In this document: positions 3,506 through 64,000 of the stretch, in pieces | Layout: the number at the start of each line of letters is the position of its first letter | How positions within the stretch are numbered: position 1 is the first letter of the stretch | Assembly: GCF_950100655.1 (NCBI RefSeq) | Contig: NZ_CATNLY010000054.1 | Location: 40,878-104,877, forward strand | DNA: 64,000 nucleotides | Direction: 5' to 3' | Source: Pleomorphomonas sp. T1.2MG-36 | GTDB lineage: Bacteria > Pseudomonadota > Alphaproteobacteria > Rhizobiales > Pleomorphomonadaceae | Notes under the pieces: model-generated | The model's database searches: none | The model's input: only the letters and a program-made list of their open reading frames with translations | What the model was told of the DNA's origin: nothing | Program-made: the position numbers and the translations under genes

Positions 3506-4786
3506 GACGGTTCTAAAAACCTCGCCAAATCAGGGTTTTTGTGATTCCCTTCGTCCTATGGCGGAGGGCTCTGGAGATGTCTGGACTGCCTGGCTTTTTT
3601 GACTTTGACGACCGGCTGAAGCGCCTGAGCGATCTCGGCGATCAGTTGGAGGCGTTCGGCAAGACCGTTGATTTCGAGATGTTCCGCGGCGACCTATCGG
3701 CGGCGCTCGGCTATACCAGCGGCCCGCAGGGCGGTCGGCCACCGTTCGATCCGGTGATGATGTTCAAGGTGCTGGTGATCCAGGCGGCCAACAACCTCTC
3801 CGACGAGCGCGCCGAGTTCCTGATCAACGACCGCCTGTCGTTCATGCGCTTCCTCGGCTTGACGCTTTCGGACCGGGTGCCGGACGCGCGGACGATCTGG
3901 CTGTTCCGGGAGAAGCTCACTCGGGCCGAGGCGATCAAGCCGCTGTTCGACCGTTTCGATGCTGCGCTGCGCGCTTCCGGCTATATCGCCGTGTCCGGCC
4001 AGATCGTCGATGCGACGCTGGTGTCGGCCCCAAAGCAGCGCATGACCGACGAGGAGAGGGAGAAGGTCAAACAGGGACGGATTCCTGAAGGCTGGAAGGC
4101 TCGCCCCGCCAAACTCCGCCACAAGGACCGTGACGCTCGCTGGACGGTGAAGTTCAAGAAGGCCAAGCAGAAAGCCGACGGGACCAAGCCGCCGGTCGAC
4201 ATCGCCATCCCGACCTACGGCTATCAGAACCATGTGTCGATCGACGCCGGCTTTGGCTTCATCCGCAAATGGCAGGCTACCGATGCCGCCTTGTATGAAG
4301 GTGCCGTGCTGCGCAAGGGACTGCTCGACAAGACCAATACGGCAGGGAAAGTCTGGGCCGACACGGCTTACCGCAGCCAGGAGAACGAGAGGTTCATGGA
4401 TGACAACGGCTTCGTCAGCTGCGTCCATCGCAAAAAGCCCAAAGGCAAACCGATGAGTGAGGCGACGCGGAGAGCCAACAATCTCAAGTCCAAGGTGCGC
4501 TCTCACGTCGAGCACGTCTTTGCCGAACAGAAGAGCCGGATGGGGCTGTTCATCCGGACCATCGGCATTGCCAGGGCGACGACCAAGATCGGGCTCGCCA
4601 ACCTCGTCTACAACATCAAACGGCTGATCTGCCTGGAACGGAGAGCGGTGGCATAGGTGGGACCCATCCCGATGAGAGATGATGGCCCGCAAGGGACACC
4701 CAAAGCCCCTGCGATATTGCCCCCCTCAGGTCGCGCGTGCAATCGACGGTCCCGGCGTGTTGGCAAACCCGATTAATAGAACCGTC
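3506..4786 (+). mobile_element. IS5-like insertion sequence
   Basis: A 1.28-kb element with perfect 10-bp terminal inverted repeats, GACGGTTCTA at 3506-3515 and its complement at 4777-4786, with weaker matching inward. It is flanked by the direct repeat AAGCT (3500-3504 and 4787-4791), which reads as a target-site duplication: removing the element and one copy restores an in-frame Gly-Thr-Lys-Leu-Asp-Pro-Asp in the HD-GYP gene. The left junction could be one base further out. It carries one transposase gene. Five bases is not the commonest duplication length for IS5 relatives, so the subgroup is left open. Confidence 0.85.
3577..4656 (+). CDS. IS5-family DDE transposase
   Basis: A 359-residue transposase that appears intact. 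It has the N-terminal DUF772-like domain (about residues 40-110, GGRPPFDPVMMFKVLVIQ), then the DDE catalytic core: Asp in QIVDATLVSAP, Asp in WADTAYRS, and Glu in HVEHVFAEQKS with the following conserved Arg. The ATG at 3577 is preferred over an upstream GTG at 3541 because GGAGGG lies just upstream. It mobilises the surrounding element by cutting its GACGGTTCTA-type ends. Confidence 0.93.
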   Translation: MSGLPGFFDFDDRLKRLSDLGDQLEAFGKTVDFEMFRGDLSAALGYTSGPQGGRPPFDPVMMFKVLVIQAANNLSDERAEFLINDRLSFMRFLGLTLSDRVPDARTIWLFREKLTRAEAIKPLFDRFDAALRASGYIAVSGQIVDATLVSAPKQRMTDEEREKVKQGRIPEGWKARPAKLRHKDRDARWTVKFKKAKQKADGTKPPVDIAIPTYGYQNHVSIDAGFGFIRKWQATDAALYEGAVLRKGLLDKTNTAGKVWADTAYRSQENERFMDDNGFVSCVHRKKPKGKPMSEATRRANNLKSKVRSHVEHVFAEQKSRMGLFIRTIGIARATTKIGLANLVYNIKRLICLERRAVA

Positions 4787-43148: not shown

Positions 43149-43560
43149 CTAGATCGCGCCCTCAATGAGCGGGCTGTCTTCTTCCCATCCCGGTCGCTGA
43201 AAGGCGGCGAACAGCCAGCTGAGCATAGGGTCATCGAGCAACCCGACAAGAAATACTGACCGCCAGTTGTTGCGACTGCCGTAGGTGTGGTCCTGACGGT
43301 CCAGTTCTGCCGCAAGGATGTTCTCCAGCGCTTGCAGCGAAGCTGGTGCCTTGCTACGTCGGCCGCTGCGAGGCTTGGCCGACATAGCAAATTGGTCCAG
43401 CTGGTGCACAGATGCAGCAGGATTGAGGTGCGTTCGACCACATTTGCGATATGGAAGCGCACTTCAGCATCAAAGAAATCTCGCAGAACTCTTGCAGTTC
43501 GACAACAAGGATTCGCTCAAAGGCGCGCGTGAAATCGAAGTGGGGCGCCGACGCGACTAA
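43149..43560 (-). pseudogene. Frameshifted gene remnant of unknown family
   Basis: Three consecutive minus-strand frames join into one plausible protein: HFDFTRAFERILVVELQEFC, then DFFDAEVRFHIANVVERTSI with LLHLC, then HQLDQFAMSAKPRSGRR and so on to a stop at 43149. Two single-base shifts (near 43475 and 43405) would explain it. No start codon is visible in the first piece, which abuts the stop of the Rad50-like gene. I do not recognise the family. It could also be chance open frames. Confidence 0.4.
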
Positions 43561-46500
43561 TGGAGTTCGTGAATTAAGACTCCCGGGACCGTCCGCACGG
43601 CCAACTCGCATAAATGCCGGTGATGGGTGAGGTAAATCACCTGTCCTACACCCGCCATCTGTCCGAACAATCGAAACACCTCTTCTGAACGTGGCTCATC
43701 AAAGGTCTCCATGATGTCGTCGGCGATGAAGGGAACCGAAGGGCGGGCTGCTGCAAACTCCTCATATCCTGCCAATCGTAGCGCTAAATACAGCTGAAAC
43801 TGGGTGCCCTTTGACAATTCGGTCGCAATCTTCGAGCCACCCTTGCGCGATAATCCAATCAGGACTTCGCGGTCCTTGTCAGGACGAGTAGCAAGACCGG
43901 TATACTCGTCGCGGGTGATGAGCCGGAAGGCTTCAGATGCTCGATCCATCATCGCGCTGCGGTGTTTGTCCCTGTAGGTGCGAATGCCGTATTCGGCGAC
44001 AAGGCTGCCCGCCTTGAGGCAAAGATAGCGCATTGCGAGGTCCTCGATTTCCAAAAGCAGTGTGCGCCGGTTCGCCTCAAGGCGGGCAGCCGCATCATCG
44101 CCGCCGATGGCGGTCAGTCGGTCAGTTGCACGCGCCTTATCAGCGAATAGGTTCTTTGCTCGTCCGTCCAGGTCTTCATTACGCGTTACAAGTTCCGCCT
44201 GCTCCCGCTGCAGCTCAGCCAAATCGGCATCAGCAAGGCTGTCCATGGCGACCTCCAGTGATGATGTCTGCATGTCACCGACGATCTGCCGCTCAAGCTT
44301 GCTCTGCTGCTCGACCAGTTCATCTCTTTTCCGGCTGCATTCGAGGGCTTGCCGCACATCCGCAAGGGTCTCGACCTGGAAGAAGTCGGTCAATTCCTTC
44401 TTGCGGGTGGCATGGACCGCGATCTCGCCGTCTACCCGCTCGCGTTCGATCGCAAGATCGGCAAGGACTCGGTCCCGTTCCTGCCGCTTCGCGTCGACTT
44501 GTCTGGCTTCCTCAAGCCGCCGTATCAGGGCCTTGGCAGCGTCAAGGGGATTGCTGCCATCGAATGTGTCGCCGAGAGCTTCATGCCGTTGGGCGACGGC
44601 GTTGACGAAGGAATTTCGATCTGCCTCCATGGACCCTATGCGATGTCGCAGATCATCCTTTTCGCGCAGAGCTTCAGGAAGGCCGGCGATCGCGTCGAGA
44701 AGCTCCCGGACAGCGCCGACACTGCATTCTTTGTCGGTGAACCATGTGCTTGCAAGAGCGATCGCCCAGTTTCTCTGCCACTCTTCGGAGGCGGTGATCG
44801 CCTTGTCGAGTGTCGACTTCCGTTGAACTGTAGCTGTTTCAACTTCACAGAGGCGCTTGTCCGCCTCCAGTCGTTTTGTCTGCGTCGCAATATGATCCGC
44901 AAGGATGGTGTCGGCGGCCTGCATCATGGCTGCCACATCCAGTCCATCGACAACGATCCCAACACTAATCAGCGTTGTTGCGAGCGTATCCCGCTCCGTC
45001 GCGAGTGCGGCCCCGACATCTTCAACATCACTTAAGGCACGGTGCAGATCATCCCACGCAGTTAACGTCGAAGAGCGGGTCTCAGCCCATTGGCCGATCC
45101 TCGCCAGCCAAGACCCGACGGATGCATGGTCGTCCAGATCAATTTCGGGTGGCGTTGCCATCCTGATCTCGCTGCGCAGTGTCTGCAGTTCTTCATTGGT
45201 CTCCCGCAGCAATTGGTGTTGGCGGTCAACCCTCGCCCTTGTCACCAACAACCCGGCTGTCACGGAACGCAGTTCCTCGAGTTCCCTGGCGTTGTTAAGA
45301 CGTGCGACCGCGGCTGCATCGGTCGCTCGCATTCGGGTCTCGAAACGATCGGCCGTTTCCCGATCGAGAACCGACAGATGCTGCGCCCAGGCTTCTTCCC
45401 GTTCGACAAGGGCGGCCCTCGTCTCATCATCATCCATGATGTCGATCGCTTCGCGTAGTGCTGCGATGCGTGCAGCATCTTCCTCCTGCTTCGTCGAGAG
45501 CTCTCGTTCACGCTCGACGATCTGCGAGCGGCGCTTCTCTATGTCGCTGGAAGCCCCCTTCCAGAACTCAAGACGATCGGCAGCGGGTGGCGACATGCGC
45601 CGAAGTTTGTCACCGTCACCGGACCATGGATGCAGCCCGTCGACCGCATCTTCAAAATGCTGGCGTTTGGCGGTAACAGCCCGTTCGGCAAGGTGCAGTT
45701 CAGAAACTAGATTACCGTCACGCAGGCGCCGCAGCACCGATTGGAGCTGTGCCACCTTGCCGGCATCAAGCGCAACACTCTGGCTATCGAGTACCTGTCG
45801 GTCACGCTGCTCTTTCTCAAGGGCCTGGCGGGCTGACTCATGCTCCTTCTCGGCCGACTGTCGTGCAACATCGACGCCAGACCTGTCGCTGATCAGATCA
45901 CGGAGCGTTCCAATCGCCGCCGCCGGCATGAGCAGCGAGTTCGGATCATCGACATCCGTCTGGCCCAGCGTGGCGAGGATGACATCAACCTTGCGGTTCG
46001 ATGCGGACAGTGCATCGTTTCGTTTCGGCAGATCCTCTTGCGCGGTCGCATATCGTGCGGCTGCGTCTGCGAGCTGATTGAGGAGATCTCCCATCTCGAG
46101 CAGTCGGTCCTCGACTATGAGTCCTTCGAGTTCCTCCCGGACCTTCTGCTCGCGCTGTCCAATGCTGGCAAGCTGGGTCTGAAGCCGCGTCTCTTCGACT
46201 ATCAGGTCTGGAAGTTCGGCCGCCCACTCAGCTGGTGGATGCGGCAGGTCCGCATATTCGGAAAGCTGCTCGTCTCCCCGACGGTAGTCAGCGGAAAGGG
46301 GGTGCGCACGCAGGACGCGGGCGATCTCGTCATGGCGAGCCTTTGCGGTACCGACCTCCTTCATGACAGAGTTATAGGCCGCCTCGGCCTGCTCGAACGC
46401 TGTCTTCAACGTTCTGTAAGCTGAAGCCTGAACGTCGATCTCGTCGCGCTGCAATTTGAGGTCCGCGATCTGTCGTTTGAGAACGGCGATCTTCGTCGAG

Positions 46501-47039
46501 CTGGCGCGCTTCCGGAAAATGCCGTCGGCCTCAGTGACAGCGGTTTCGAGAATTGAACTGATGCCGGCGAGGCCGGCGCTCGCAGAGAATAGCAATTCCC
46601 CCAGATCGCCCTTGCTTTCTAGGATAGCGTTGCCGCCATCCTCCAACGTCTGATCGTCGAGGGAGAACATCATCCGATAGGCGTCGCGAGTTAGACCCGC
46701 GAGCGGAGCGCTTAGCAACGCTTCGTTGACCGGCTGACCTTGCTCATTCAGCAGCGAATTGCTCCGCTGCTTAACACGCTTGAACTCATGCAACTGCCCA
46801 TCAAATTCGAGGCAGGCGCCGATTTCCATTGCCTTGCCCTGATGCAGGAAGCCGTACTTCGTGCGCTCTTCGATCCCAAACAGCAGGTCGAGATAGGCTG
46901 ATAGCGACGTCGATTTTCCCGCCTCGTTTAGTCCGTAGACGATATGCAGGTCAGGCGTTCCTGCGACATGTTCCCCGAAATTGATCTTATCGGCGGTGAA
47001 CTTTCCGTAGCGGGTGAGGTCAAGCCGGCGCAGGCGCAT
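43557..47039 (-). CDS. Rad50/SbcC-like (YhaN-type) SMC ATPase
   Basis: A 1,160-residue ATPase. The N-terminal half-site has Walker A in VYGLNEAGKSTSLSAYL (about residues 36-44). Two long coiled-coil arms span roughly 170-1000. The C-terminal half-site has the signature SKGTQFQLYLALRLAGYEEF and Walker B in VPFIADDIMETFDEPR. It resembles YhaN, the partner of the nuclease YhaO. The pair should hold and process DNA ends, as in the Mre11/Rad50 complex. Its ATG shares a base with the stop of the nuclease gene (TGATG), so the two subunits are coupled. Confidence 0.9.
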   Translation of the reverse strand: MRLRRLDLTRYGKFTADKINFGEHVAGTPDLHIVYGLNEAGKSTSLSAYLDLLFGIEERTKYGFLHQGKAMEIGACLEFDGQLHEFKRVKQRSNSLLNEQGQPVNEALLSAPLAGLTRDAYRMMFSLDDQTLEDGGNAILESKGDLGELLFSASAGLAGISSILETAVTEADGIFRKRASSTKIAVLKRQIADLKLQRDEIDVQASAYRTLKTAFEQAEAAYNSVMKEVGTAKARHDEIARVLRAHPLSADYRRGDEQLSEYADLPHPPAEWAAELPDLIVEETRLQTQLASIGQREQKVREELEGLIVEDRLLEMGDLLNQLADAAARYATAQEDLPKRNDALSASNRKVDVILATLGQTDVDDPNSLLMPAAAIGTLRDLISDRSGVDVARQSAEKEHESARQALEKEQRDRQVLDSQSVALDAGKVAQLQSVLRRLRDGNLVSELHLAERAVTAKRQHFEDAVDGLHPWSGDGDKLRRMSPPAADRLEFWKGASSDIEKRRSQIVERERELSTKQEEDAARIAALREAIDIMDDDETRAALVEREEAWAQHLSVLDRETADRFETRMRATDAAAVARLNNARELEELRSVTAGLLVTRARVDRQHQLLRETNEELQTLRSEIRMATPPEIDLDDHASVGSWLARIGQWAETRSSTLTAWDDLHRALSDVEDVGAALATERDTLATTLISVGIVVDGLDVAAMMQAADTILADHIATQTKRLEADKRLCEVETATVQRKSTLDKAITASEEWQRNWAIALASTWFTDKECSVGAVRELLDAIAGLPEALREKDDLRHRIGSMEADRNSFVNAVAQRHEALGDTFDGSNPLDAAKALIRRLEEARQVDAKRQERDRVLADLAIERERVDGEIAVHATRKKELTDFFQVETLADVRQALECSRKRDELVEQQSKLERQIVGDMQTSSLEVAMDSLADADLAELQREQAELVTRNEDLDGRAKNLFADKARATDRLTAIGGDDAAARLEANRRTLLLEIEDLAMRYLCLKAGSLVAEYGIRTYRDKHRSAMMDRASEAFRLITRDEYTGLATRPDKDREVLIGLSRKGGSKIATELSKGTQFQLYLALRLAGYEEFAAARPSVPFIADDIMETFDEPRSEEVFRLFGQMAGVGQVIYLTHHRHLCELAVRTVPGVLIHELH

Positions 47040-48310
47040 CAGTTAATCTCCGACGCTTCCGGCTTCAACCGGGCCAGCATGTCCTCGCTGCCGTCCGTCA
47101 GCAGCTGGTCGATCAGGGCTTCGAACGCGGCTTCGTCATCGCCGCTGAACCCACGCGCTTCAGGGGGCAGGTCATCGCGCAGTTCCTTGACCAAATCGCC
47201 CACAGCTTCACGAACACCGTGCTGGTGAATGATGTCGCTTCGCATCAGTTCGCCAAGTTCTAGGACCGGGTCGGCGGTTGCAGTTCCAACCTGTGCGCTC
47301 ACCGGTGCTGTGGTCGCGATCTCGATCTTCTCGATCCAAACCTTACCGAGCCCCTCGGCGCGTTGCTCGATCTCCGCCAGCAGCAGTTCGCGATCGCGAC
47401 GCAACTGCCATGACAACGGCGTTGCCCCTGCCAATTGAAGGCGGCCGACGAGATGGGCCGAGCGTGCGCCGTCACGAGCGACACCTACTCCTTGCTCAAC
47501 GAGTTCGGCTGCTTCGCGCCATGATCGGGCGGAAGAGAGATCGACTGAAATCCTTTCGAACTGCGCAATGCTGGTCAGTCGCTCCTCGCTAGAGATGCTT
47601 CGATCGTCGTGTACCGTAACGAGGGTGGCCGACTTCTCGCCACCCTCGTTGATATCTCGCCCTTGAGGGATACCAGGCATGATTACCATCCGGTCCCCGG
47701 CGTGCTGCGCGCGCGCATGGATATGGCCCAGGGCCCAATAGTCGTACCCCCATCCATGCAAGTCAGCTGCCTTGCATGGCGCATAAAGATCGTGGCCTGG
47801 AGCTCCGGCTATACTGGTGTGCATGATGCCGATGTTGACAGTATCTGGGGAGGGCCGTCGATACTTATCGAGGAGGCTTTCAGGAGCCTGAGGTTTGGCA
47901 AAACTCAGTCCGTGAACGTGGATTTTCAAGCTGTCTTTCGACAGCTCCACCGCATCGGCGCGACCTTGGAAGACCTTGACTGAGGGCGGAAGGACCAGTT
48001 CCTGGGTGATACGGGAGAGAGCATCGTGGTTTCCGCGGATGACAAAGGTGGCGATACCCGCCTCGTGCAGACGCTGCATCTGGCTTGCAAGAAAACGTGC
48101 CGTCTTCATCGACGTCTGGTCGCCGTCATACAGATCACCAGCAATCATCAGTGCGTCGACCCGCTCGTCGATGCAGAGGTCGACTATCGACACCAGCGAT
48201 TGGCGCGTCGCGTCTCCGATCAGGCCGGCAAGATCGCTGTTGCGCATCGCAAGCGAGCGCAATGGCGAATCCAGGTGAATGTCGGCCGTATGGACAAACC
48301 GGAATGACAT
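47039..48310 (-). CDS. Mre11/SbcD-like (YhaO-type) metallophosphoesterase nuclease
   Basis: A 423-residue protein with all calcineurin-type metal motifs: FVHTADIHLDSPL, LMIAGDLYDGDQTS, FVIRGNHDALSRI, IGIMHTSIAG and YWALGHIHARAQH. The C-terminal 150 residues are a capping and SMC-binding part. Expected role is exo/endonuclease on DNA ends together with the downstream ATPase. Placed in an island with other defence-like genes, so a role in phage or plasmid DNA degradation is possible, but DNA repair is equally consistent. Confidence 0.9.
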   Translation of the reverse strand: MSFRFVHTADIHLDSPLRSLAMRNSDLAGLIGDATRQSLVSIVDLCIDERVDALMIAGDLYDGDQTSMKTARFLASQMQRLHEAGIATFVIRGNHDALSRITQELVLPPSVKVFQGRADAVELSKDSLKIHVHGLSFAKPQAPESLLDKYRRPSPDTVNIGIMHTSIAGAPGHDLYAPCKAADLHGWGYDYWALGHIHARAQHAGDRMVIMPGIPQGRDINEGGEKSATLVTVHDDRSISSEERLTSIAQFERISVDLSSARSWREAAELVEQGVGVARDGARSAHLVGRLQLAGATPLSWQLRRDRELLLAEIEQRAEGLGKVWIEKIEIATTAPVSAQVGTATADPVLELGELMRSDIIHQHGVREAVGDLVKELRDDLPPEARGFSGDDEAAFEALIDQLLTDGSEDMLARLKPEASEIN

Positions 48311-48403: not shown

Positions 48404-48709
48404 ATGACTGAGAGGCTGGAATCTATCGTTCCTAGTGGGCCGCGCGCAGGATGGGCGCGCGAGCGGGAGGGTCTTCGATTGCAGTTGGTGCAACCTCTGC
48501 AGATGCTCGTGCTCGCAGATCGAATTTTGTGGCCCATTTCAGCAGACGCGGAGATCGCTAATCTTCTACCTGTCGAGATTGATCGCGCTGGAGCGCTAAG
48601 GACCGTTCAAATGCGAGCAAGCGAAGACGGTCTTGGCTGGCTGTTGGAGTACAAAAACGGGCGAATCGCGTGGGTTCTCGACATTGTGGCGGTTCAGCGA
48701 GGTGGCTGA
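48404..48709 (+). CDS. Hypothetical protein, first gene of the island operon
   Basis: A 101-residue protein (GTG at 48356 would add 16 residues). Two segments stand out, LRLQLVQPLQMLVLADRILW and GLGWLLEYKNGRIAWVLDIV, suggesting a small alpha/beta fold. No family is recognised and no strong ribosome site is seen. It is 1 base upstream of the next small gene and runs with the sigma-like gene. Confidence 0.5.
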   Translation: MTERLESIVPSGPRAGWAREREGLRLQLVQPLQMLVLADRILWPISADAEIANLLPVEIDRAGALRTVQMRASEDGLGWLLEYKNGRIAWVLDIVAVQRGG

Positions 48710-48710
48710 C

Positions 48711-48956
48711 ATGCGCTGCGTCGTCGGAGATGTCCCGGCAGTTGCGGTAGAGCCAGTCGAACTGGCTACCTTCCAGGAGCGTCGATACTTGGATTGCCTT
48801 AGCGCCTTGCAGTCCTTGCGTGAGAAAGTCCTTCGCGTTGAAATGCAACCCCATCAGTTCACCAGCGGGCTTGAGCTGGGTCTTCAATTGAAGATTGCTG
48901 CGTATTACAATCAGGGCTTCGTAAAGAAAATTGGATCGTCGCTTCCGAATTTCTGA
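48711..48956 (+). CDS. Hypothetical small protein
   Basis: An 81-residue protein with AGGTGG just before its ATG. A helical segment (ERRYLDCLSALQSLREKVLR) is its main feature. No family is recognised. It follows the previous gene by one base, which favours a real operon. Confidence 0.42.
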   Translation: MRCVVGDVPAVAVEPVELATFQERRYLDCLSALQSLREKVLRVEMQPHQFTSGLELGLQLKIAAYYNQGFVKKIGSSLPNF

Positions 48957-49005
48957 GCCTGCGTTCGCATTCATATTGAAAGCCATTTTGAGCGGGTAAC
49001 CCCAC

Positions 49006-49707
49006 ATGATTTCAAGTACGAAGATGGTCGAGGAGCCCCCGCCGAGCGATGACTTGCAAGCCTGGCAGGAGATCGCGCATGCGCGGCGTCTAGGCGAGTT
49101 TTGCCCCGAAGATCTGGTGAAGGTAGTCCAGCGGATCGGGCCAAATGGCAATCAGCGACTCCTGACGATTCTTGTTGGTCATCTCTCGGAAGTGGTCTTC
49201 AAGATGCTGTGCCGCTCTATCCGTAAGTCTGCTTGGCAGAGGGACGACGAACACATCTGGCGGCCGCACCACAAGATCATTGTCGCCATCCTCACGCCGA
49301 GTTCAGCGGATGGGAAGGCGCTCTGCCGGACCTTTAAGGCCATCGTTGAGCTGCGCGCTCTCGATGAGATGGTAGAAAGAAAGAAGCAGAAGGCGCGATA
49401 CATCTCATCGACTTTGCCGGTGAACGACGACAAGCCCAATGCAAGCGATCAACTGGACTCGGCTGATCCAAAGCCGGGCGATTTCCTCGAACAGCAAGCT
49501 CACGTCGAGAGCGTGCTCAAGAAAATTTCTGACCCAAGGAAACGCGAAGCGTTTCGTATGCACATGGAGGGAATCTCTATCGGTCCCACAAAGAAGGGCA
49601 CCCCCTCGATCGCGGAAAGGCTTGGCGTCAGCTCGAAGACCGCGGGAGAGTGGATCGAAGAGGTTCAGACTTTCCTGAAAACAGCGATGGAGAGTCAAAA
49701 TGACTAA
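49006..49707 (+). CDS. Sigma-70-like transcription factor
   Basis: A 233-residue protein with two conserved-looking parts. Residues about 30-125 (NQRLLTILVGHLSEVVFKML, ILTPSSADGKALCRTFKAIV) resemble sigma region 2, and residues about 165-225 (SDPRKREAFRMHMEGISIGP, IAERLGVSSKTAGEWIEEVQ) resemble a region 4 helix-turn-helix. It may direct RNA polymerase to the operon or be a sigma-derived activator. Its end overlaps the next start by 8 bases. Assignment is by pattern only. Confidence 0.6.
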   Translation: MISSTKMVEEPPPSDDLQAWQEIAHARRLGEFCPEDLVKVVQRIGPNGNQRLLTILVGHLSEVVFKMLCRSIRKSAWQRDDEHIWRPHHKIIVAILTPSSADGKALCRTFKAIVELRALDEMVERKKQKARYISSTLPVNDDKPNASDQLDSADPKPGDFLEQQAHVESVLKKISDPRKREAFRMHMEGISIGPTKKGTPSIAERLGVSSKTAGEWIEEVQTFLKTAMESQND

Positions 49708-50311
49708 CCCCATAATGAGCGCCGATCGCGATCAGGTCCTAATCGCGTTCAATGAAGTGGCTGATGTTCCGTCCGAGAAGCAGGTTCGGGACTGGATGAA
49801 TCGTTACCCGCAGTTCGCAGAGGACATTCGCGAGCATGCCGAGTTCAAGCGTGAACTGGCTGAAGCGCCGGAGGAGGATTTCGCTGAGCCTGACGATGCA
49901 ATGCTTGCGACGGCTCGTAGCCGTGCGCTGAACATTCTTCACGACATACAGCAGAAAGCGGCCGCGAATCAAACACAAAGTCCTACCTGGAGCGAGATCC
50001 TTTCCTCGTCGGCGATGGATATTCCAGCGCTTGCACGTAAGATCGACATCGACCGTTCGGTGTTGGCGGAATTGAACGCAGGACGCATGAGGTTCCCGAT
50101 TGGCGAACGACTCCTTTTAGCCTTATGCGATGCGCTCGATCTCTCACGAGGATGCATAGAGATGGCGATCGAACAGTTGTCGTCAGGTCCAAGGAAGCTG
50201 GGGCAAGCTAAGGCTCGAGGTCCCATGACAATTAATTCGCGTAGCTACGAGGAGGTCATTAACGCAAGCCAGATGACGCCGGAAAAAAAGCAATATTGGC
50301 TCGGTGACTGA
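49700..50311 (+). CDS. Helix-turn-helix-like protein, possible repressor or anti-sigma factor
   Basis: A 203-residue acidic protein. The N-terminal half (VPSEKQVRDWMNRYPQFAED, AEFKRELAEAPEEDFAEPDD) could bind a sigma factor. The second half has a helix-turn-helix-like core (MDIPALARKIDIDRSVLAEL, ERLLLALCDALDLSRGCIEM). It lies between the sigma-like gene and the protease-helicase gene and overlaps both, so all three are coupled. An ImmR-like target of the adjacent peptidase is an attractive inference. Confidence 0.55.
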   Translation: MTNPIMSADRDQVLIAFNEVADVPSEKQVRDWMNRYPQFAEDIREHAEFKRELAEAPEEDFAEPDDAMLATARSRALNILHDIQQKAAANQTQSPTWSEILSSSAMDIPALARKIDIDRSVLAELNAGRMRFPIGERLLLALCDALDLSRGCIEMAIEQLSSGPRKLGQAKARGPMTINSRSYEEVINASQMTPEKKQYWLGD

Positions 50312-53300
50312 TCCTATGGACGTTTGGCGTGAGGTTAGGCTCAAGGCCCGTGCCGCACATCTGGCGGCCCTAGAGAAAAACGGTGGCAACTATGTCGCCG
50401 CCGAACTCATTAGGGGAGCGCTCGAAGTAGATGACCTGCAACTCGCCCCGTACGAGCCAGGGTCCATTGTCAGCGTGGGTGTTCTCGGTTTTCTCGATCG
50501 TGCGAGCAAGATCGTCAACATTGCTAATGGGCAAGGGGCGGCCGAGAAAGCGGTCGTCATTGCTCATGAGATTGGTCACTTTAGGCTTCACAAAGACCCG
50601 CGCAATGAAGTAACGGCGGTGGCCCACGGCCTTGGAGGCGACCCGATCGATTCTGGAGCTGGTCGTGTGGAAGGCTATTCTCCACGCGAGCGAAAGGAAG
50701 TACAGGCCGACGTCTTCGCAGGCGAGTTTTTGTGTCCGAGCGATTGGCTTCGTAGCGAAATTGTCGATAAGGGTCGCAAGCCTTCCGATATCGCGAGCGA
50801 ACTTGGCTTACCTAATAGCCTGGTCACGAACCAGACCGTCAGAGCGCTTTTACTACCGCCTTTGCGTCCGTCTCCCGACGCCGAAGAGGGCGTTATTTAC
50901 GAACTCGACCCAAGTCAGCGAGAAGCGGCACTATGGGACCAAGGACCGTTGCTAGTCGATGCAGGACCAGGGACTGGGAAGACGAGGACGCTCGTGCACC
51001 GTGTTCTGCACCTGCTGCTGGTGAAGAAGGTTTCCCCGGCATCCATATTGGCACTGACCTTTTCGAACAAGGCCGCTGAGGAAATGCGCGAGCGCATCGC
51101 CGCGGACAATGTCGATGCCAGTATCGAAATGTGGACTGGGACGTTCCATGCGTTCGGGTTGGAGTTGGTTACGAAATATCCTGGTCGTATTAAGCGCACA
51201 GGGAACGTGAGGATACTTGACGAAGCCGGACAGTTGGCTCTGCTAGAAGATAATCTTACGCGGCTCCCACTTTATCATTTTCAGAACCTCTATGAGCCCG
51301 CCTATGAACTTGTTCACGTTCTGCGCGCCATATCACGGTGCAAGGACGAGCTAATATCTCCAGATTTGTATCACGCGGAAGCAAAGGCTGCCAAAGCTGC
51401 GGCGCGATCCGAGGAGGAGAATGAAGCGGCCGACAAAGCGCTGGAGATTGCTGCAATCTACAGAATATACGAGGAGGAGCTTGAAAAGGCGGACGCTGTT
51501 GATTTCGGCGATCTCGTACTTCACGCCACCAATCTCCTCAACGACAATCCTGATATTCGTGCCGAGTATCATGCTCGCTTCGACCACATCCTGGTCGATG
51601 AATTTCAGGATGTGAATCTCGCTAGCGCGCGGCTATTGAAGGCATTGTGCAAGGCCCAGGCGGATATCTGGGTCGTCGCCGACCAGCGGCAGTCAATCTA
51701 TCGCTTTCGAGGCGCTGCGCCGAGCAACGTTCAGCAGTTCACAACCGAATTTTCTGGGCAACAGCGCTCTCTGGGCGTGAATTATAGGTCCGGCGCTCCC
51801 GTCGTGCGAAGCTTTCAGACATTTGCCAGAACGATGCGATCTGCGCCAGGCGGATCGAGCTGGGTTCCGAACCGAGGGCAAGTTGGCGCTGTTTCGCAAA
51901 TTCAAGCGCCAACTGTCGTCGAGGAGGCCACTGCCGTCCGCGACCATATCGAGGAAATGCGGGCACAGGGAATAGCATATCGAGATCAGGTCATATTAGC
52001 GCGAAGCCATCTCACGCTGGCACGCGTCACAAGCGTGCTCGAACAGCTCGGTGTGCCGCTCCTCTACCTCGGAGATCTGTTTGAGCGAGCGGAAATCCGC
52101 GACTTGCTCTCGCTTCTATCCATCGACGCAGAACCTGGCGCCGTCGGTCTGGTGCGCGTGGCCCAGCTTAGCGAATACAACGCCTCCAAGGCCGATGCTC
52201 TAGCCGTCATAGCGTGGGCAGCTTCCCAGGATATTTCAGTTTTTGAAGCCCTGCGTCGCACCGATGAGATTAAGGATGTATCCGAGCACGGCAAGGTCGG
52301 ACTGGGGCTTCTCGGCTTTCACCTCCGGGATATGGGGCCGCATACTTCGCCCTGGGTATTGTTGACGACATGGCTTTTCGAACGAAGTTCCTATCTATCG
52401 AAAATGCTCGTCGCCAATCATGCCCAGGCTCAGCAAAAGCTCATCGCGATCTATCAGATTCTGAAAGTATGTGGTGAGGCCGCCGAGGCGGGCATAAACA
52501 AGCGCAAGCAGTTCTTGGCCCGGATTCGGCGTATCGAAGCGCTCGATGATGATCGAGTTTATCGGGCGATTTCCTCCGAAGCGTCTGACATGGATGGTGT
52601 TCGGGTTATGACCATTCACGGGAGCAAAGGTCTTGAATTTAAGGCTGTGCATCTTCCGGCGCTGGCTACCCGTTATATGCCTTCCAGCCGTCAGGGAACA
52701 CGCTGCCCTCCTCCTCCAACCTTGCCTCAGCTGGCTCGATCCTCAGATGAGCATGACGCGGAGGAGGAATGTCTGTTCTTTGTCGCCCTGTCCCGTGCGC
52801 AAGATTACCTCTTCCTTAGTCGCGCCGAGCGATACAGCGCAGCGCAAAGCGCCAGCCCGTCGAAATTTCTGGCCTCCATAAACGGCCTAGCACCGGCGCG
52901 CAGATGCGCATCTAGCGGTCTTCCTCCGCCAAATGCTCCCATTATGGTTCCGTTGGCGACACGCAGCCGTTACGAAGAGCGGGAGCTCAGTTTGTACCTT
53001 CAATGTGCGCGTCGATATCAAAGTGAAGCCGTCGATGGCCTTCGCGTGTTCCGGGACGACTCGCCTTACCTGAACTTTCATCGGTGCGTGTTCCGTACCA
53101 TTGCGTGGCTAGGCTCTCAGCGAACCTCGGGCACTGCCATTACTCGCGAAATGGCGCTTGCGCACCTACGAGAGGAATGGACTGCGCGCGGCCCGAATGG
53201 GCATGGCTTCGAGCCGTACTATCGAGCGTCGGCAGAGGCTATGGTCGAACGCATGGCGGATATCACCAATAGCGAGGTTGGCCAGTATGATACAGATGAG

Positions 53301-53684
53301 TGGAGTATCGATTTCGCAGGCAAGACAATAACGCTCACTCCAGATCGCGTCCTGATAGAGCCAGATGGACGCGTGCGTGTTCAACGGGTTCGCACAGGAC
53401 GACGCTCTAAGAGCGAAGCCGACAATCGCATCTATGCGCTCCTGCGTCATGGCGCGGGCGCTAGATATCCCGGCACAACAATATCCATCGAGACGCTGTA
53501 TCTGGCGACGCGCGAAATCGTACCTGTCATGGCCCGGAACGATCAAAAGCTTCTGGACGAGTACGCCGATGCCATCGGCGCCATCGAGCAGGGCATCTTC
53601 GGTACCAAGCCCAACGACACCCGCGGCTGCCCGAACTGTCAATGCTACTTTACCTGCGACTTCGTCAACGGCATCGCCAGCTAG
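50304..53684 (+). CDS. ImmA/IrrE peptidase - UvrD helicase - degenerate nuclease fusion
   Basis: A 1,126-residue protein (GTG at 50304; ATG at 50316 also possible). Residues 1-200: ImmA/IrrE zinc peptidase with VIAHEIGHFRLH (H88, E89, H92) and the downstream acid in EVQADVFAGEFLCPSDW. Residues about 205-850: superfamily 1 UvrD/RecB helicase with Walker A in VDAGPGTGKTRTL, LALTFSNKAAEEMRER, Walker B in ILVDEFQDVN, VVADQRQSIYRFRGA, MTIHGSKGLEFKAVHLPAL and VALSRAQDYLFLSRAE. Residues about 895-1126: a RecB/Cas4-like module with Cys in LYLQCARRYQ and a terminal cluster GCPNCQCYFTCDF fit for an iron-sulphur site. The nuclease motif that should read D-Y-K-T-G is VQRVRTG, so cutting is probably lost. 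It may sense and unwind foreign DNA while cleaving a regulator. Confidence 0.88.
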   Translation: MTDPMDVWREVRLKARAAHLAALEKNGGNYVAAELIRGALEVDDLQLAPYEPGSIVSVGVLGFLDRASKIVNIANGQGAAEKAVVIAHEIGHFRLHKDPRNEVTAVAHGLGGDPIDSGAGRVEGYSPRERKEVQADVFAGEFLCPSDWLRSEIVDKGRKPSDIASELGLPNSLVTNQTVRALLLPPLRPSPDAEEGVIYELDPSQREAALWDQGPLLVDAGPGTGKTRTLVHRVLHLLLVKKVSPASILALTFSNKAAEEMRERIAADNVDASIEMWTGTFHAFGLELVTKYPGRIKRTGNVRILDEAGQLALLEDNLTRLPLYHFQNLYEPAYELVHVLRAISRCKDELISPDLYHAEAKAAKAAARSEEENEAADKALEIAAIYRIYEEELEKADAVDFGDLVLHATNLLNDNPDIRAEYHARFDHILVDEFQDVNLASARLLKALCKAQADIWVVADQRQSIYRFRGAAPSNVQQFTTEFSGQQRSLGVNYRSGAPVVRSFQTFARTMRSAPGGSSWVPNRGQVGAVSQIQAPTVVEEATAVRDHIEEMRAQGIAYRDQVILARSHLTLARVTSVLEQLGVPLLYLGDLFERAEIRDLLSLLSIDAEPGAVGLVRVAQLSEYNASKADALAVIAWAASQDISVFEALRRTDEIKDVSEHGKVGLGLLGFHLRDMGPHTSPWVLLTTWLFERSSYLSKMLVANHAQAQQKLIAIYQILKVCGEAAEAGINKRKQFLARIRRIEALDDDRVYRAISSEASDMDGVRVMTIHGSKGLEFKAVHLPALATRYMPSSRQGTRCPPPPTLPQLARSSDEHDAEEECLFFVALSRAQDYLFLSRAERYSAAQSASPSKFLASINGLAPARRCASSGLPPPNAPIMVPLATRSRYEERELSLYLQCARRYQSEAVDGLRVFRDDSPYLNFHRCVFRTIAWLGSQRTSGTAITREMALAHLREEWTARGPNGHGFEPYYRASAEAMVERMADITNSEVGQYDTDEWSIDFAGKTITLTPDRVLIEPDGRVRVQRVRTGRRSKSEADNRIYALLRHGAGARYPGTTISIETLYLATREIVPVMARNDQKLLDEYADAIGAIEQGIFGTKPNDTRGCPNCQCYFTCDFVNGIAS

Positions 53685-53761: not shown

Positions 53762-54253
53762 ATGACGAAGGCGAATATTTTTGTCCAAGTTCAGGGTAAG
53801 CTTGGCATTTCCGATTTGGAAATCACTACTCCCATCACTGTTGGCGGACTCCACGATGCCCTGAAAGAACTGGGCATCGATGTGTCTGACGACATGGAGA
53901 TCTTCATCGACGAGGCTGACGAGGCCGAGACCAAGAACCGGATGGCTCCAATCAAGGAGCTGAAGCACGGTGCCCGCATTCATGTCACGCGTTGCAAGAA
54001 GATCAAGGTGACTGTGAACTATCTCGACCAGAGCGCCGACCACATCTTCGCCCCCGGCAAGCGCGTTCGCGCGGTGAAGAAGTGGGCCGTGAGCCACTTC
54101 CACATCAACGCCACGGATGCAGGCGAGCATGTCCTTCGGCTCTGCAATACCAACACGCAGCCACCGACCGACACCCCGCTGGCCGAGTTGGTCTCTGGCC
54201 ACGAGTGCTCTGTTTGCTTCGACCTCGTTCCCGAGAAGCGCGTGGAGGGGTGA
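53762..54253 (+). CDS. bilA: BilA-like protein with two ubiquitin-like domains
   Basis: A 163-residue protein made of two beta-grasp units in tandem, as in eukaryotic ISG15. Residues 1-78 open with [20 protein letters not shown]; residues 79-155 open with [20 protein letters not shown]. It ends in Val-Glu-Gly, so the C-terminal glycine is exposed and could be adenylated by the E1 without trimming. AGGAG lies 7 bases before the ATG, and a longer upstream frame is rejected. It heads an E2-JAB-E1 operon. In the described Bil systems the Ub-like protein is attached to phage structural protein; attachment here is inferred. Confidence 0.85.
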
Positions 54254-54255
54254 AC

Positions 54256-54741
54256 ATGAACCAGGCTGTCCAACCCGACCGCCTGCTTCTCGAAGCAGAT
54301 CTGTCCGCGCCAACCTTTCGGTGCGGACAGATCGAAGGGAAGTGGCACCACATCGAAACCCACTGGCCGCATGTTATCATCGCCGTGTCGGCTGCCGAGC
54401 GTCCCAACGCGCCGACCGAATACGGCTTTCGCTTCGATTGCGCCGGATATCGTGAGACTGCGCCGACGGCGCAACCGTGGGATGTAGCAAAATCCGCGCC
54501 ACTGGCAGCGGCACAATGGCCGGTCGGCCGAGCCATCGTGCCCTCCGTCTTCAGACCCGAGTGGAAGGGCGGCCTGTGCCTCTATCTGCCATGCGATCGC
54601 CTGTCCTTCGACGGCCATCCGAACTGGATTCATGAACATCCCAACCGACTGTGGCAGCCGGCGCGAGGCATCGTCTGCTACCTGGAGCAAATCCATGACC
54701 TTTTCAATCAAGAGGACTATTCGGGCGTTCGTGGCGCCTAA
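54256..54741 (+). CDS. bilB: BilB-like E2 ubiquitin-conjugating-type enzyme
   Basis: A 161-residue protein. The segment [19 protein letters not shown] resembles the E2 active site (Gly-x-hydrophobic-Cys-Leu), so Cys108 is the best nucleophile candidate; Cys113 is the alternative. [10 protein letters not shown] and [18 protein letters not shown] match the His-Pro-Asn and Trp-Pro-Ala followed by helix of E2 folds, though the order is altered. GGAGG inside the end of bilA precedes its ATG. It should receive the Ub-like protein from the E1 and pass it to target. Confidence 0.82.
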
Positions 54742-55213
54742 CTACAAGCTCAATGTGCCCAAAACGCTCTGGCGTGATGTCATACGAAACCTTCATGCCC
54801 GCGGACGGCGACAGCACGAGTCGGGCGCCTTTCTTCTCGGTCGCCAAGAGGGCAGACGCTTCGAAGCCGTCAGCGCGATCTTCTACGACGATCTCGACGG
54901 AAGCGCTTATGCCTCCGGCGTCTGCGTCCTGAAGGCCGACAGTTTCTCAAAACTGTGGGCGATCTGTCGGGAACAGAAGCTCACTGTCGTCGCCGACATG
55001 CATACGCATCCTGGCGCCGCGTTTCAGAGCGAGTCTGATCGGAAGAACCCAATGGTCGCGCGCGCTGGTCACATCGCCATCATCATTCCGAACTTTGCGT
55101 CACCGCCGATCGAACACAAGCAACTCGGGTTCTACGAGTATCTCGGCGACCATCGCTGGAACGATCGAAGCGCGGCCCGACGGAGCTTCGTCTACTATGG
55201 CTTTTGGAGCTGA
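54695..55213 (+). CDS. bilC: BilC-like JAB/JAMM deconjugating peptidase
   Basis: A 172-residue zinc isopeptidase. The complete JAMM set is present: Glu42 in [10 protein letters not shown], His103 and His105 in [10 protein letters not shown], Ser112 and Asp115 in QSESDRKNP. It would release or recycle the Ub-like protein. The ATG at 54695 has GGAG upstream and lies within the end of bilB (47-base overlap), so the two are coupled. Confidence 0.9.
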
Positions 55214-55215
55214 CC

Positions 55216-56580
55216 ATGAGCATCACTCTCGATCACACCAATCTTCATCGCACTGCAAAATACTTTATGGATAGCGGTCGCGCCCAAACTCACGACGATG
55301 CCATGGCGATACTGAGCGGCTTCGGCCTTAGCATCTGGGTGGGACAGGAAGTCTATCACTCTGCCGCTCACCAGATCGCCTTGCTAACTTTGGTCAACCT
55401 GGCCCGCAGAACCTTTCTCGGTGGAGTCGAGGTTGTCGGCGCCGAGGATGCTCCATCTCTCACGCCGCTGGCGCAGGGAGCGTCCTTGTCTGAAGCTATT
55501 ATTGATTTCGGTGGCCGCCCCACATTGGAGGCGCATGCGACCTGGCCTGTCGCCGTGATAGGCACCCACACCTCGCGTTCGCTTGATACCGTCAACGGGT
55601 GGCGGCTGACCTGGCAGGGCTGGCGTGGAGGTGTCACGCCTCTTCGCGACCCGAATTATCTCACCGAAGACAGCGCCAATCCGCTCGCGCCTGCCATCGC
55701 TGCTGCCGCCTGCGCCGCAGAGGCCTTCGCATGGCATGCGGCCGATCATGTCATGGCTGGGCGCAGACCAGTCGGTCTGTCCCTTTGGGATCCCACGCGT
55801 AATTGGTTGGAGCAGGACGCCAGCGAACCCGAGCTTTCGTACTTGCCGTCACGCCTCTGGTTGATCGGTCTGGGCAACCTCGGCCAGGCAATCTCGTGGC
55901 TACTGGCCTGCCTGCCTTATGCCGACCGCAGCCAAGTTGAGCTGCTTCTTCAAGACTTCGATGAAATGGCCGAGTCGAATGACAGCACGTCGCTGTTGTC
56001 GTCACGGTCCCTCGTCGGTCAGAAGAAGACCAGGGTTGTTTCACAGTGGCTTGAGCAGATCGGTTTCCGTACGCTGATTGAAGAGCGCAGGTTTGGCCGA
56101 TGGATCGTTCGCGGGCCGCACGATCCTGGCGTGGCTCTATGCGGCGTCGACAATGCCTTGGCGCGATCGGAGCTCGACAAGCCGGGCTTTGACCTTATCG
56201 TCGAGGCTGGCCTTGGTGCCGGTCCTGGCGGCTTCCGTAATTTCTCAATGCACAGCTTCCCGTCATCGCTAACGCCCGACCGCATCTGGGGGCGGCAACA
56301 ACATGGTGAGACGGTCGATGTCTCATCCATGCCCGCATATGATGCTCTAAGGAAGGCGGGTGTCGGCGCCTGTGGCTTGGCGCAGCTTGCCTCCCGCACG
56401 GTTGGCGTTCCATTCGTGGGCCTTATCGCCGCTGCCCTTGTCGTCGCCGAACTGCTTCGCAGGCTTCATGGGGCGCGAGGTCTAGAATACGTTTCCGGTT
56501 CAACGTTTTGTCTCGACGACGTCGAAAAATCTGAGATGGGTCTCAGTCCCTATCAGTCCGCCTTTGTCAGAGCGCGCTGA
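55216..56580 (+). CDS. bilD: BilD-like E1 activating enzyme (ThiF fold)
   Basis: A 454-residue protein. The first 200 residues are an extra domain. Residues about 213-420 form the ThiF/E1 nucleotide-binding fold: LWLIGLGNLGQAISWLL (Gly loop 217-223), the Asp in LLLQDFDEMAESNDS for ribose or magnesium, and the catalytic-loop Cys386 in AGVGACGLAQLASRTVG. It adenylates the C-terminus of the Ub-like protein and carries it as a thioester. GGAG precedes the ATG, 2 bases after bilC. A strong hairpin follows the gene. Confidence 0.9.
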   Translation: MSITLDHTNLHRTAKYFMDSGRAQTHDDAMAILSGFGLSIWVGQEVYHSAAHQIALLTLVNLARRTFLGGVEVVGAEDAPSLTPLAQGASLSEAIIDFGGRPTLEAHATWPVAVIGTHTSRSLDTVNGWRLTWQGWRGGVTPLRDPNYLTEDSANPLAPAIAAAACAAEAFAWHAADHVMAGRRPVGLSLWDPTRNWLEQDASEPELSYLPSRLWLIGLGNLGQAISWLLACLPYADRSQVELLLQDFDEMAESNDSTSLLSSRSLVGQKKTRVVSQWLEQIGFRTLIEERRFGRWIVRGPHDPGVALCGVDNALARSELDKPGFDLIVEAGLGAGPGGFRNFSMHSFPSSLTPDRIWGRQQHGETVDVSSMPAYDALRKAGVGACGLAQLASRTVGVPFVGLIAAALVVAELLRRLHGARGLEYVSGSTFCLDDVEKSEMGLSPYQSAFVRAR

Positions 56581-62516: not shown

Positions 62517-63041
62517 CCCCGCTGCGCGCTGTGAATCTGCCTTCCTCGGAGCCCGGTGCACGCGTCTTTGAACCTCGGTCCCTTCCTTGTGTGTCCGGCC
62601 TTCTGGCGGATGTCGTCTCTCTGCCGGCTACCGCGACGTTTGATCGCGCGCCCATATGAATGCCCATGCGGTCGGGCTATCGGACGTTTGTTCGCTTGAG
62701 GAGCAGCGCTTCAATGTGAGCCTCGACGGCGGAAGCAATGCCGAATTGCCTTTGACGCATTCTGTTCCTTTCTCGTCTGCTGGCCGACGCTTCAGCGGGC
62801 TCGATATGGCATGTCTGACCGGAGCACGGCTTCGCCTCGATCGTCTTCCCGCAACGGCTCGTCCAAAACTTTCTTCCCCTGCTCACAGGTTCGCATTCCT
62901 CGCGGGACAAGAAAGCTTTGTCCGTCCGCCCTCCACATGCGTTCCGGCTCTGACGAGTGCGGTTCGATCGTCCCCGGTCTTTTTGACTGCCATCGAGGCC
63001 GCGAAGGGAGCGGCCCGAGACACGCGAAAAGGAACACCATC
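62517..63041. other. Leader region before the truncated DUF736 gene
   Basis: About 525 bases with no supported gene. CTTCTTCCCCTG, CATTCCTCGCG and then GACTGCCATCGAGG (from about 62985) are matched, in the same order, in the leader of the other DUF736 gene (complement strand, 63670-63800). A stem follows (GGCCGC/GCGGCC) before the ribosome site. Confidence 0.5.
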
Positions 63042-63233
63042 ATGGCGACCATCGGTTCTTTCACCGCCTCCGACAACGGCTTCACCGGTTCGATCCGCAC
63101 GCTGACGCTCAACGTCAAGGCCCGCTTCCAGCGCGTCGACAACCCTTCGGACAAGGGGCCGCACTACCGCATCTACGCAGCCGGCAATGTTGATTATGCG
63201 GAGAGCGGGATTATGTGGAGTGTTGGCCTGTAA
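63042..63233 (+). pseudogene. Truncated DUF736 gene
   Basis: The first 50 residues are a good DUF736 start ([35 protein letters not shown]), but the second half (YLSLKLDDPSF-type) is missing. After 63191 the frame enters a repeat-ended element and stops at 63233. The product would be 63 residues and probably non-functional. An intact, divergent copy lies at 63330-63629 on the other strand. Confidence 0.8.
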
Positions 63234-63277
63234 GGCTTGGTTTTCCGCCGGTTCCGGCGGGTTCTGCTCCGCATAAT
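63192..63277. mobile_element. Short repeat-ended element truncating the DUF736 gene
   Basis: GATTATGCGGAG (63192-63203) and GATTATGTGGAG (63209-63220) are direct repeats 5 bases apart, and CTCCGCATAAT (63267-63277) is their inverted copy. Between them lies a stem CCGCCGG/CCGGCGG (63245-63260). Paired direct repeats at one end with an inverted copy at the other recall ends of tyrosine-recombinase elements. At about 86 bases it could be a non-autonomous relic; no recombinase is present. Confidence 0.5.
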
Positions 63278-63329
63278 TTCGGGGCTTGGAAGGCGGGCGC
63301 CCCGCCGTGAGCGGAGCGCCGTTGGCCAG

Positions 63330-63629
63330 TCATCGTGACCAGATGAGCCTGTGCTCGCCCTTGTCGCCCTGAACGAGGGAGGCGTAGACCGGGGCGGTGA
63401 AGGACGGATCGTCGAGCTTGAGCGAGAGGTATTCGGCGCCCGTCTCGCGGGCGGTCCGGCTCCAGCCGGCTCCGAACTCGACGCCGTTGGCGGTGACGCG
63501 ATAGTCGGGCGCCTTGTCGTTGTCGCGGTCGCAGGGCTTGATGGTGGCCTTGACGTTTAGGGTGAGGGTCTTGATCGTGCCGGCAAAAGCGCCGTTGTCG
63601 TCGCGGGTGAAGGTGCCGATCTGAGCCAT
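63330..63629 (-). CDS. DUF736-family protein
   Basis: A 99-residue protein, full length for the family: AQIGTFTRDDNGAFAGTIKT, VEFGAGWSRTARETGAEYLS, LKLDDPSFTAPVYASL and a terminal LIWSR. GGAG lies 8 bases before the ATG at 63629, which is chosen over an open frame to 63929. DUF736 proteins are small, common on rhizobial plasmids and of unknown function. Convergent with the truncated copy. Confidence 0.88.
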   Translation of the reverse strand: MAQIGTFTRDDNGAFAGTIKTLTLNVKATIKPCDRDNDKAPDYRVTANGVEFGAGWSRTARETGAEYLSLKLDDPSFTAPVYASLVQGDKGEHRLIWSR

Positions 63630-64000
63630 TGTCGTATCTCCTGAGAGTTGCCCGAAGCCGCCCGATGCGACCTCGATGGCGGTCGAGAGGCGCCGGACCG
63701 GACGGCTGCACCCCTTGGGGGCCGTAGCGGCAGCGCAGGACGGCGGCAGCCGAGCTTGTTGGTTCGCGAGGAATGACCGCTCGCGGTCAGGGGAAGAAGG
63801 TCGGCGGAGCCGTTGCAGGCCAAGGCCGGGCCGGCGCCAGACCAGCCCAAAAGAGAGGCCGCCTGGGGGCTTCGCCGCATGATCGTCAGAGATCGACGCT
63901 GGCGGTCGGTACCTCCTCGGCACGCTCATTGCCGCCGGTGCGTCACCCTCCCGCCGTCACGGCCACCCTGCCTCCCGACCCAACGACACCAACCGCGCCC
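63630..64000 (-). other. Leader of the intact DUF736 gene, cut by the window end
   Basis: About 370 bases with no supported gene. On the minus strand it contains CTTCTTCCCCTG, CATTCCTCGCG and GCCATCGAGG (complement of 63671-63680) in the same order as the leader of the truncated copy. The similarity of non-coding sequence between the two suggests conserved RNA or regulatory function, or recent duplication. Confidence 0.5.

Follow-up and report, generated by a model that had tools for sequence, protein, structure and literature searches.

The stretch analysed here (the window: 64,000 nucleotides of the alphaproteobacterium Pleomorphomonas sp. T1.2MG-36, contig NZ_CATNLY010000054.1, positions 40,878 to 104,877) carries, on its + strand, three overlapping genes located directly upstream of an operon encoding ubiquitin-like (Ubl) immunity proteins. 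They are named S (49006..49707), encoding a 233-aa protein that resembles sigma factors of the extracytoplasmic function (ECF) type, H (49700..50311), encoding a 203-aa protein with an XRE-type helix-turn-helix (HTH) domain, and F (50304..53684), encoding a 1126-aa protein in which a peptidase, a helicase and a nuclease-like domain are fused. S, H and F form a conserved triad, found together above chance, that probably controls ubiquitin-like immune operons in response to DNA. The original prediction, made from the sequence of the window alone, had placed the open reading frames (ORFs) correctly.

The proposed mechanism is as follows. S would be a dedicated ECF-type sigma factor recognising a bipartite promoter located before the Ubl operon; its second target would be a copy found either before its own gene (Bil type of operon) or inside S, ahead of H (multiubiquitin type). 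H, the proposed inhibitor of S and substrate of F, would restrain S, most likely through binding. F would load at DNA ends or gaps by means of the helicase and of the apparently inactive nuclease-like part; the ImmA-like peptidase of the DNA-engaged F would be switched on and would cleave H, probably near its linker or its C-terminal helices. The freed S would then turn on the Ubl operon and the production of more regulators, from the sites P1 and P2 described below. The sequences themselves show the make-up of the triad and the layout of its promoter-like sites, whereas recognition of these sites by S, inhibition of S, cleavage of H and the triggering by DNA are inferred.

F has three domains, all of which exceed the respective Pfam cut-offs. 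Its first domain (50496..50813, residues 65-170) is an ImmA/IrrE-like Peptidase_M78 (36.0 bits, cut-off 22) with the residues H88-E89-x-x-H92 and E132; the second (50904..52883) is a UvrD/Rep-type helicase (UvrD-helicase, 241 bits, plus UvrD_C) with a Walker A K226, D432-E433 and R831; the third (52983..53657, residues 894-1118) is a PDDEXK_1 domain (36.3 bits, cut-off 22). The fusion of an ImmA-type peptidase to a UvrD helicase had been correctly foreseen, as had the role of H88 and E89 as peptidase residues; the third, nuclease-like domain had not been named. Residues were counted in 54 fusions of at least 1,050 aa from the window and from loci on plasmids, genome contigs and viral contigs. 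Almost all of them keep the peptidase residues (H88, 54/54; E89, 52/54; H92 and E132, 53/54 each), and all 54 keep the four helicase residues. Four cysteines of the third domain (901, 1109, 1112 and 1118) are kept in 53/54, the remaining sequence having a gap; their pattern is presumably that of the iron-sulphur AddB/Cas4-like nucleases. The catalytic residues of PDDEXK nucleases (D...D/E-x-K) are not all found there: D1014 is kept in 44/54, and the D/E-x-K part is replaced, mostly by R-x-R, so that the nuclease-like domain looks catalytically dead. With its peptidase and helicase residues intact and its nuclease motif lost, F therefore looks like a DNA motor that carries a protease and, at its end, a domain binding DNA without cutting it. 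A sequence search of the PDB with the peptidase part of F gave no relative (one chance match, E 0.43). The GTG at 50304 may not be the start of F; it could be the ATG at 50316, because the starts used for 14 plasmid homologues align at this codon (M5).

F could instead be a Gabija-like or RecBCD-like effector acting on phage DNA, S and H being mere regulators of F and of the Ubl operon and the peptidase a side function. The invariant helicase motifs, the match of GajB profiles (PADLOC) to the helicase part and the existence of some fusions without a Ubl operon are in line with this explanation. It is nevertheless improbable, since position 1028 is acidic in 0/54 fusions and position 1030 a lysine in only 7/54, since GajA is absent among the nine operon proteins scanned and since the peptidase residues are conserved nearly like those of the helicase.

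The triad was searched for in plasmid records and genome contigs (loci are designated by L and a number). The peptidase part of F is found in 89 plasmid records, 14 of which, picked to span organisms, were examined: all 14 loci have an S-like gene, a gene of about 200 codons, the fusion and a Ubl operon, in this order. Profiles of H and S were trained solely on the window and these 14 loci. Among the genome-contig loci (the best 80 of 557 relatives), 44 encode the peptidase and the helicase in one ORF according to profiles. H lies upstream of F in 41 of these 44 independent loci (not in L037 and L039, both of which are cut by the contig end, nor in L041) and S is detected by its profile in 37. 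The further loci lacking S (L035, L049, L054 and L064) have a different ECF-like gene in its place: those of L035 and L064 match TIGR02937 under its cut-off (1.7e-4 and 4.3e-9, respectively), that of L054 has no NCBIfam match and is ECF-like by eye, and that of L049, like that of L035, was seen in translation. As a control, 74 UvrD loci that had not been classed as fusions were scanned. H was found in one, L062, where the match to the fusion covers 6-1118 yet is not one ORF in the scan. Weak S matches were found in four (L062, L071, L072 and L082), those of the last three being ORFs of 369-379 aa distant from the UvrD match. The conservation of both neighbours, on which the original prediction had staked its case, is thus observed.

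Acinetobacter accounts for 45 of the 89 plasmid records with the peptidase part. The Acinetobacter plasmid loci L010 and L019 carry the triad and a multiubiquitin operon, L019 being near a mer operon. Two contigs classed as viral also carry parts of the triad: L101 (1-4316) includes S (cut), H and F, with no Ubl operon found, and L102 (3660-5143) includes H and F, the contig being cut within F; genes resembling, by eye, tail or endolysin genes are close by. The peptidase family, its HTH partner and the presence of homologues on plasmids and on these two contigs would also be expected of an ImmA/ImmR-type induction switch of a plasmid or of an integrative and conjugative element, located beside Bil by chance. 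The same gene order recurs next to Ubl operons from several phyla in the records found, and the genome of the strain itself has no third copy of the promoter-like site, which makes this explanation highly improbable.

The operon located downstream of F in the window is a Bil operon, as had been proposed. Its genes are met in the order BilA-B-C-D (PADLOC), BilA beginning 77 bases after F: BilA, ubiquitin-like protein (53762..54253, +; 6.5e-51); BilB, E2-like (54229..54741, +; 2.6e-64; DUF7665); BilC, JAB/JAMM peptidase (54632..55213, +; 2.8e-64; Prok-JAB); BilD, E1-like (55204..56580, +; 2.5e-167). Of the 41 genome fusion loci that could be assessed (L056, L057 and L065, which are cut off, were left out), 35 are adjoined by a Ubl operon (Bil or multiubiquitin). 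It is a Bil operon downstream of F in 9 cases, a multiubiquitin operon downstream of F in 24 and a divergent operon in two (L054 and L064); F and the operon are thus co-directional in 33/35. The module is not tied to Bil: it also serves multiubiquitin operons, and some fusions lack any adjacent operon of this kind. In a tree of F made by a quick method (53 rows, 52 of them labelled), six changes among Bil, multiubiquitin and none are counted. The cassette has probably moved between operon types, because the F of the multiubiquitin loci L015 and L027 group with that of the Bil locus L013.

A survey of 289 genomes drawn from the class of the strain found H in three (its own included), each with a Ubl operon directly downstream. 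Matches to Bil or multiubiquitin proteins occur in 10 genomes, seven of which lack H; one of these seven (L149) was set aside as too short. Five of the six other Ubl operons have an M78 peptidase near their Ubl genes, and four of these five also have an HTH gene or domain, an arrangement like that of CapH+CapP. Neither M78 nor HTH was noticed at the sixth (L146), whose genes had no family scan. As the other Ubl operons of the class carry M78 peptidases nearby, mostly with an HTH, the triad seems to hold the slot of known controllers. We give an even chance to a broader proposal, in which S-H-F would be a modular, transferable cassette that serves at least two kinds of Ubl operons, sometimes stands alone and uses a promoter inside the sigma gene for feedback.

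Two copies of a candidate promoter support the proposal, made originally, that S turns on the Bil operon or itself. The bipartite site CTTCCGAATTT N5 CCTGCGTTCGC occurs 37 bases 5' of S (P1, 48942..48968, +) and in the gap between F and BilA (P2, 53689..53715, +). The window contains no other match, 100 shuffles of it give none, and the 5.2-Mb genome has no further one with up to 3 mismatches allowed; the P1 and P2 stretches have 27/34 bases in common. A stretch common to the gap and to the region upstream of S beats all 40 shuffles in 9 of the 44 loci, all of Bil type.

The gaps of 29 multiubiquitin loci share a motif, TTaCCGG ... CGATTRa, whose two blocks are separated by about 17 bases (likelihood 337, versus 101, 118 and 108 in three shuffled sets; 40 starts for the real set, 12 for the shuffled ones). 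A strict pattern, composed after the motif had been seen, was applied to these 29 loci. It matches the gap in 20/29, the inside of S in 20/29 and the region upstream of S once; elsewhere it matches three times (one on the + strand, two on the - strand) in 584,365 bases, both strands included. In the loci counted, the site inside S is in frame and lies about 207-225 bases ahead of the end of S, therefore a little over 200 bases ahead of H. Its codons were compared with those of the rest of the same genes in 27 S genes of multiubiquitin type, with columns fixed by one reference. Ile is encoded by ATT in 20/23 codons of the site versus 131/413 elsewhere (p=1.6e-7) and Arg by CGG or CGA in 24/25 versus 292/815 (p=6e-10); such codon choice indicates that the site is constrained as DNA. 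Gap and internal sites were also paired within loci (L015, L027, L045 and L050 were left out for low score or for place). The variable base of TT[A/T]CCG agrees in 22/23 loci (p=1.8e-4; the misfit is L060), and the two sites share 19.6 bases within loci versus 17.1 across loci (22 pairs, permutation p=5e-5, kinship ignored).

The gap motif of the 17 Bil loci is weaker (likelihood 137, versus 83-91 in four shuffled sets; 80 starts for the real set, 20 for the shuffled ones). It was searched for in shortened gaps, longer ones having yielded the ribosome-binding site. With the resulting matrix, 12/17 Bil loci also show a site upstream of S. The gap site is the top site of the whole locus in 21/29 multiubiquitin and 12/17 Bil loci. 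The Bil matrix places 10/29 multiubiquitin gaps in the top 5% of locus windows and the reverse comparison 9/17 Bil gaps: the matrices carry over in part between the two types. The multiubiquitin matrix gives no site (at most 1.0) in six Ubl operons that lack the triad. A loose pattern was tried in the Bil loci and dropped as unspecific (gap, 7/17; upstream of S, 7/17; elsewhere, 98). L054 has another kind of S, although its F and that of L048 are sisters in the tree; its divergent promoter region lacks the usual site. In this region, shared with the multiubiquitin operon (about 4235-4376), an inverted repeat, GGTCTTGCCA...TGGCAAGACC, replaces the usual motif.

S had been described as sigma-70-like. 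The S of the window matches TIGR02937 with an E of 3.6e-4, and its relatives of L059 (7.7e-13) and L015 (5e-12) score above the curated cut-off of this family. Sigma70_r4_2 is matched at E<=0.01 by 22/35 members, and the S profile has ECF sigma factors as its best PDB matches, region 4 being the part mostly covered. The structural model of S (mean predicted local distance difference test score (pLDDT) 86.4) has helices at 17-134, a low-confidence linker and helices at 158-232 that include an HTH. The 22 best Foldseek matches in the PDB all belong to sigma-factor or RNA-polymerase initiation entries and, to judge from chain and length, are the sigma subunits (best E 1.2e-3 at a probability of 1.00; none reaches E<=0.001). 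Their template modelling (TM) scores are only 0.2-0.3 because the two domains are loosely joined. S is thus predicted to have the sigma-like fold expected from the original prediction, with sigma2-like and sigma4 domains.

H, which had been called HTH-like, matches HTH_26 slightly below its cut-off (E=5.7e-4). Its model (pLDDT 89.5) has N-terminal helices (10-89), an XRE-type HTH (97-162), a linker and two C-terminal helices (183-201). The fold matches are XRE domains, including those of C proteins, Stl, DdrO (TM 0.68 by target) and CapH (7t5u, 0.74). H and S overlap by 8 nucleotides in the window; when the nearest possible start is taken for H, a 4-base overlap is found in 30/52 loci. Co-variation of H with its partners was measured in 46 loci by partial distance correlations (500 permutations each). 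The C-terminus of H co-varies with the peptidase, given S, the helicase and the N-terminus of H (partial r 0.33-0.35, p 0.002), and not with S, given F (0.06, p 0.20). For the HTH, the values are 0.30 with S (p 0.002) and 0.20 with the peptidase (p 0.004). An attempt to locate the contact with S in the N-terminus of H by co-variation was given up, the signal being weak. The link between H and the peptidase is clear and, combined with what is known of the peptidase family, makes the putative destruction of H by F plausible.

An arrangement of CapH type has to be weighed against restraint of S by H. In it, H would be a repressor bound to DNA at P1 and P2 and cleaved by F, and S an activator not bound by H. 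H does have the XRE fold of CapH and DdrO, its HTH co-varies with S as would be expected of two readers of one promoter, and the same slot is occupied in other Ubl operons by peptidase genes with HTH partners. Against this, a palindromic operator for H, sought from the site to the start codon, is not clearly enriched (5/43 loci rank within the top 5% of their shuffles, against an expectation of about 2), and the site found is non-palindromic with a sigma-like spacing. Furthermore, where another ECF-like gene replaces S (L035/L049, L054 and L064), the N-terminus of H differs, its YPxxA motif being gone, and the C-terminus is kept (by eye). In direction, spacing and asymmetry, the sites are closer to a sigma promoter than to the operator of a repressor, and we hold the CapH-type arrangement to be unlikely.

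The proposal that S-H-F is a controller in which F relieves the restraint of S by H also meets contrary observations. The S of the window scores under the family cut-offs and E89 is altered in 2/54 F. The matches of H to CapH and DdrO all have E>0.1, as for any XRE domain, and therefore indicate an XRE fold and no more; the family and fold matches of H include no known anti-sigma family or fold. The co-variation statistics ignore kinship; they link the N-terminus of H weakly to S (partial r 0.14, p 0.03) and as much as the C-terminus to the peptidase (0.34, p 0.002), and the correlation of the HTH with S also suits a DNA repressor. No significant site is found upstream of S in L013, L021, L028, L030 and L052, and L027 and L060 have no site at the expected place of the gap (the best one of L060 is at +194). 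The unspecific result of the loose pattern points the same way. The Bil matrix reaches 10.6 in L145, which lacks the triad, as much as the lowest-scoring true Bil gaps, and the control is therefore clean for one matrix only. Lastly, six fusion loci have no Ubl operon in the flanks covered (L025, L035, L041, L049, L053 and L059). One of them, L041, also lacks S and H; L049 was counted among the six as the 1,674 bases located 3' of F gave no match (other operons begin within about 220 bases).

Two small ORFs located upstream of S (48404-48709, and 48633 or 48711-48956) had been counted as parts of the operon and are rejected as parts of the module. They have no Pfam match over cut-off and no NCBIfam match, and phmmer found no match at E<=1 in the other collected loci. 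P1 overlaps the end of the second one. Both are probably outside the module. On the other side of these ORFs, the triad is adjoined by a pair of genes (43557-48310, - strand) encoding an SbcD-like phosphoesterase (Metallophos) and an AAA_27-type ATPase; SbcCD-like pairs, as annotated, are also found near the triads of L012, L015 and L020. Such a pair is a possible source of DNA ends, or a possible partner. Farther away in the window (62811-63929), similar stretches are found in two adjacent ORFs of opposite strands, an apparent duplication.

No description of the fusion or of the triad was recognised in literature searches, which did not extend to the primary Bil, Bub and CapH/CapP papers; the sigma-type bipartite promoter motif appears to be new here. 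A DNA-triggered switch acting on a neighbouring Ubl defence operon would be a new way of arming bacterial immunity. It would link a DNA-processing motor directly to the transcription of ubiquitin-like immunity, in parallel to the CRISPR CASP-sigma switch with DNA as the trigger, and its promoter motif would be a ready handle on what such sigma factors control.

Several known systems can be compared with the triad. Gabija also has a UvrD-type helicase (GajB); it differs by GajA, of which the scanned operon proteins contain none, and F adds peptidase and nuclease-like domains. PprI/IrrE-DdrO, which likewise pairs a metallopeptidase with an XRE protein, is not known to include a helicase fusion or a sigma factor. 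Cleavage of an XRE repressor by a metallopeptidase activated by single-stranded DNA (ssDNA) is the feature of PprI (PMC10904395). According to another source (PMC13373217), CapP is activated by ssDNA and cleaves an XRE protein, and CapK+CapS and CapW/BrxR are DNA-damage controllers found upstream of Bub/Bil and other immune operons. The same source reports 544 Bub operons, 219 with CapW or CapH+CapP and 59 with CapK+CapS (PMC13373217); the triad may account for part of the remaining ones. CapK+CapS and CapW/BrxR differ from it in being kinase/STAS or WYL proteins. CapH+CapP, which accompanies CBASS, Bub and other immune operons, is closer: both combine an M78 peptidase (HExxH motif) and an XRE-HTH protein next to an immune operon, and in 4/6 of the other Ubl operons of the class a peptidase and an HTH gene or domain occupy the controller slot. 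The peptidase of the triad is nevertheless part of a helicase/nuclease-like fusion of about 1120 aa, whereas CapH and CapP are two small stand-alone proteins; the triad adds the sigma factor S, its site is of promoter type rather than palindromic, and it is generally co-directional with the Ubl operon. In the CASP system of type III-E CRISPR (protease, Csx29; inhibitor, Csx30; ECF sigma factor, CASP-sigma), the inhibitor of the sigma factor is cleaved by the protease, and some sites of CASP-sigma lie within the locus that encodes it (PMC10028731). The triad likewise has a protease, an HTH protein, a sigma-like protein and sites in its own locus, and would share the inhibition and the cleavage; it differs by a DNA helicase and a metallopeptidase in place of an RNA-guided caspase-like protease, and no relation was seen between the inhibitors. 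Although it resembles CapH+CapP as well as the CASP-sigma switch of CRISPR, the triad is distinct from both and combines their themes.

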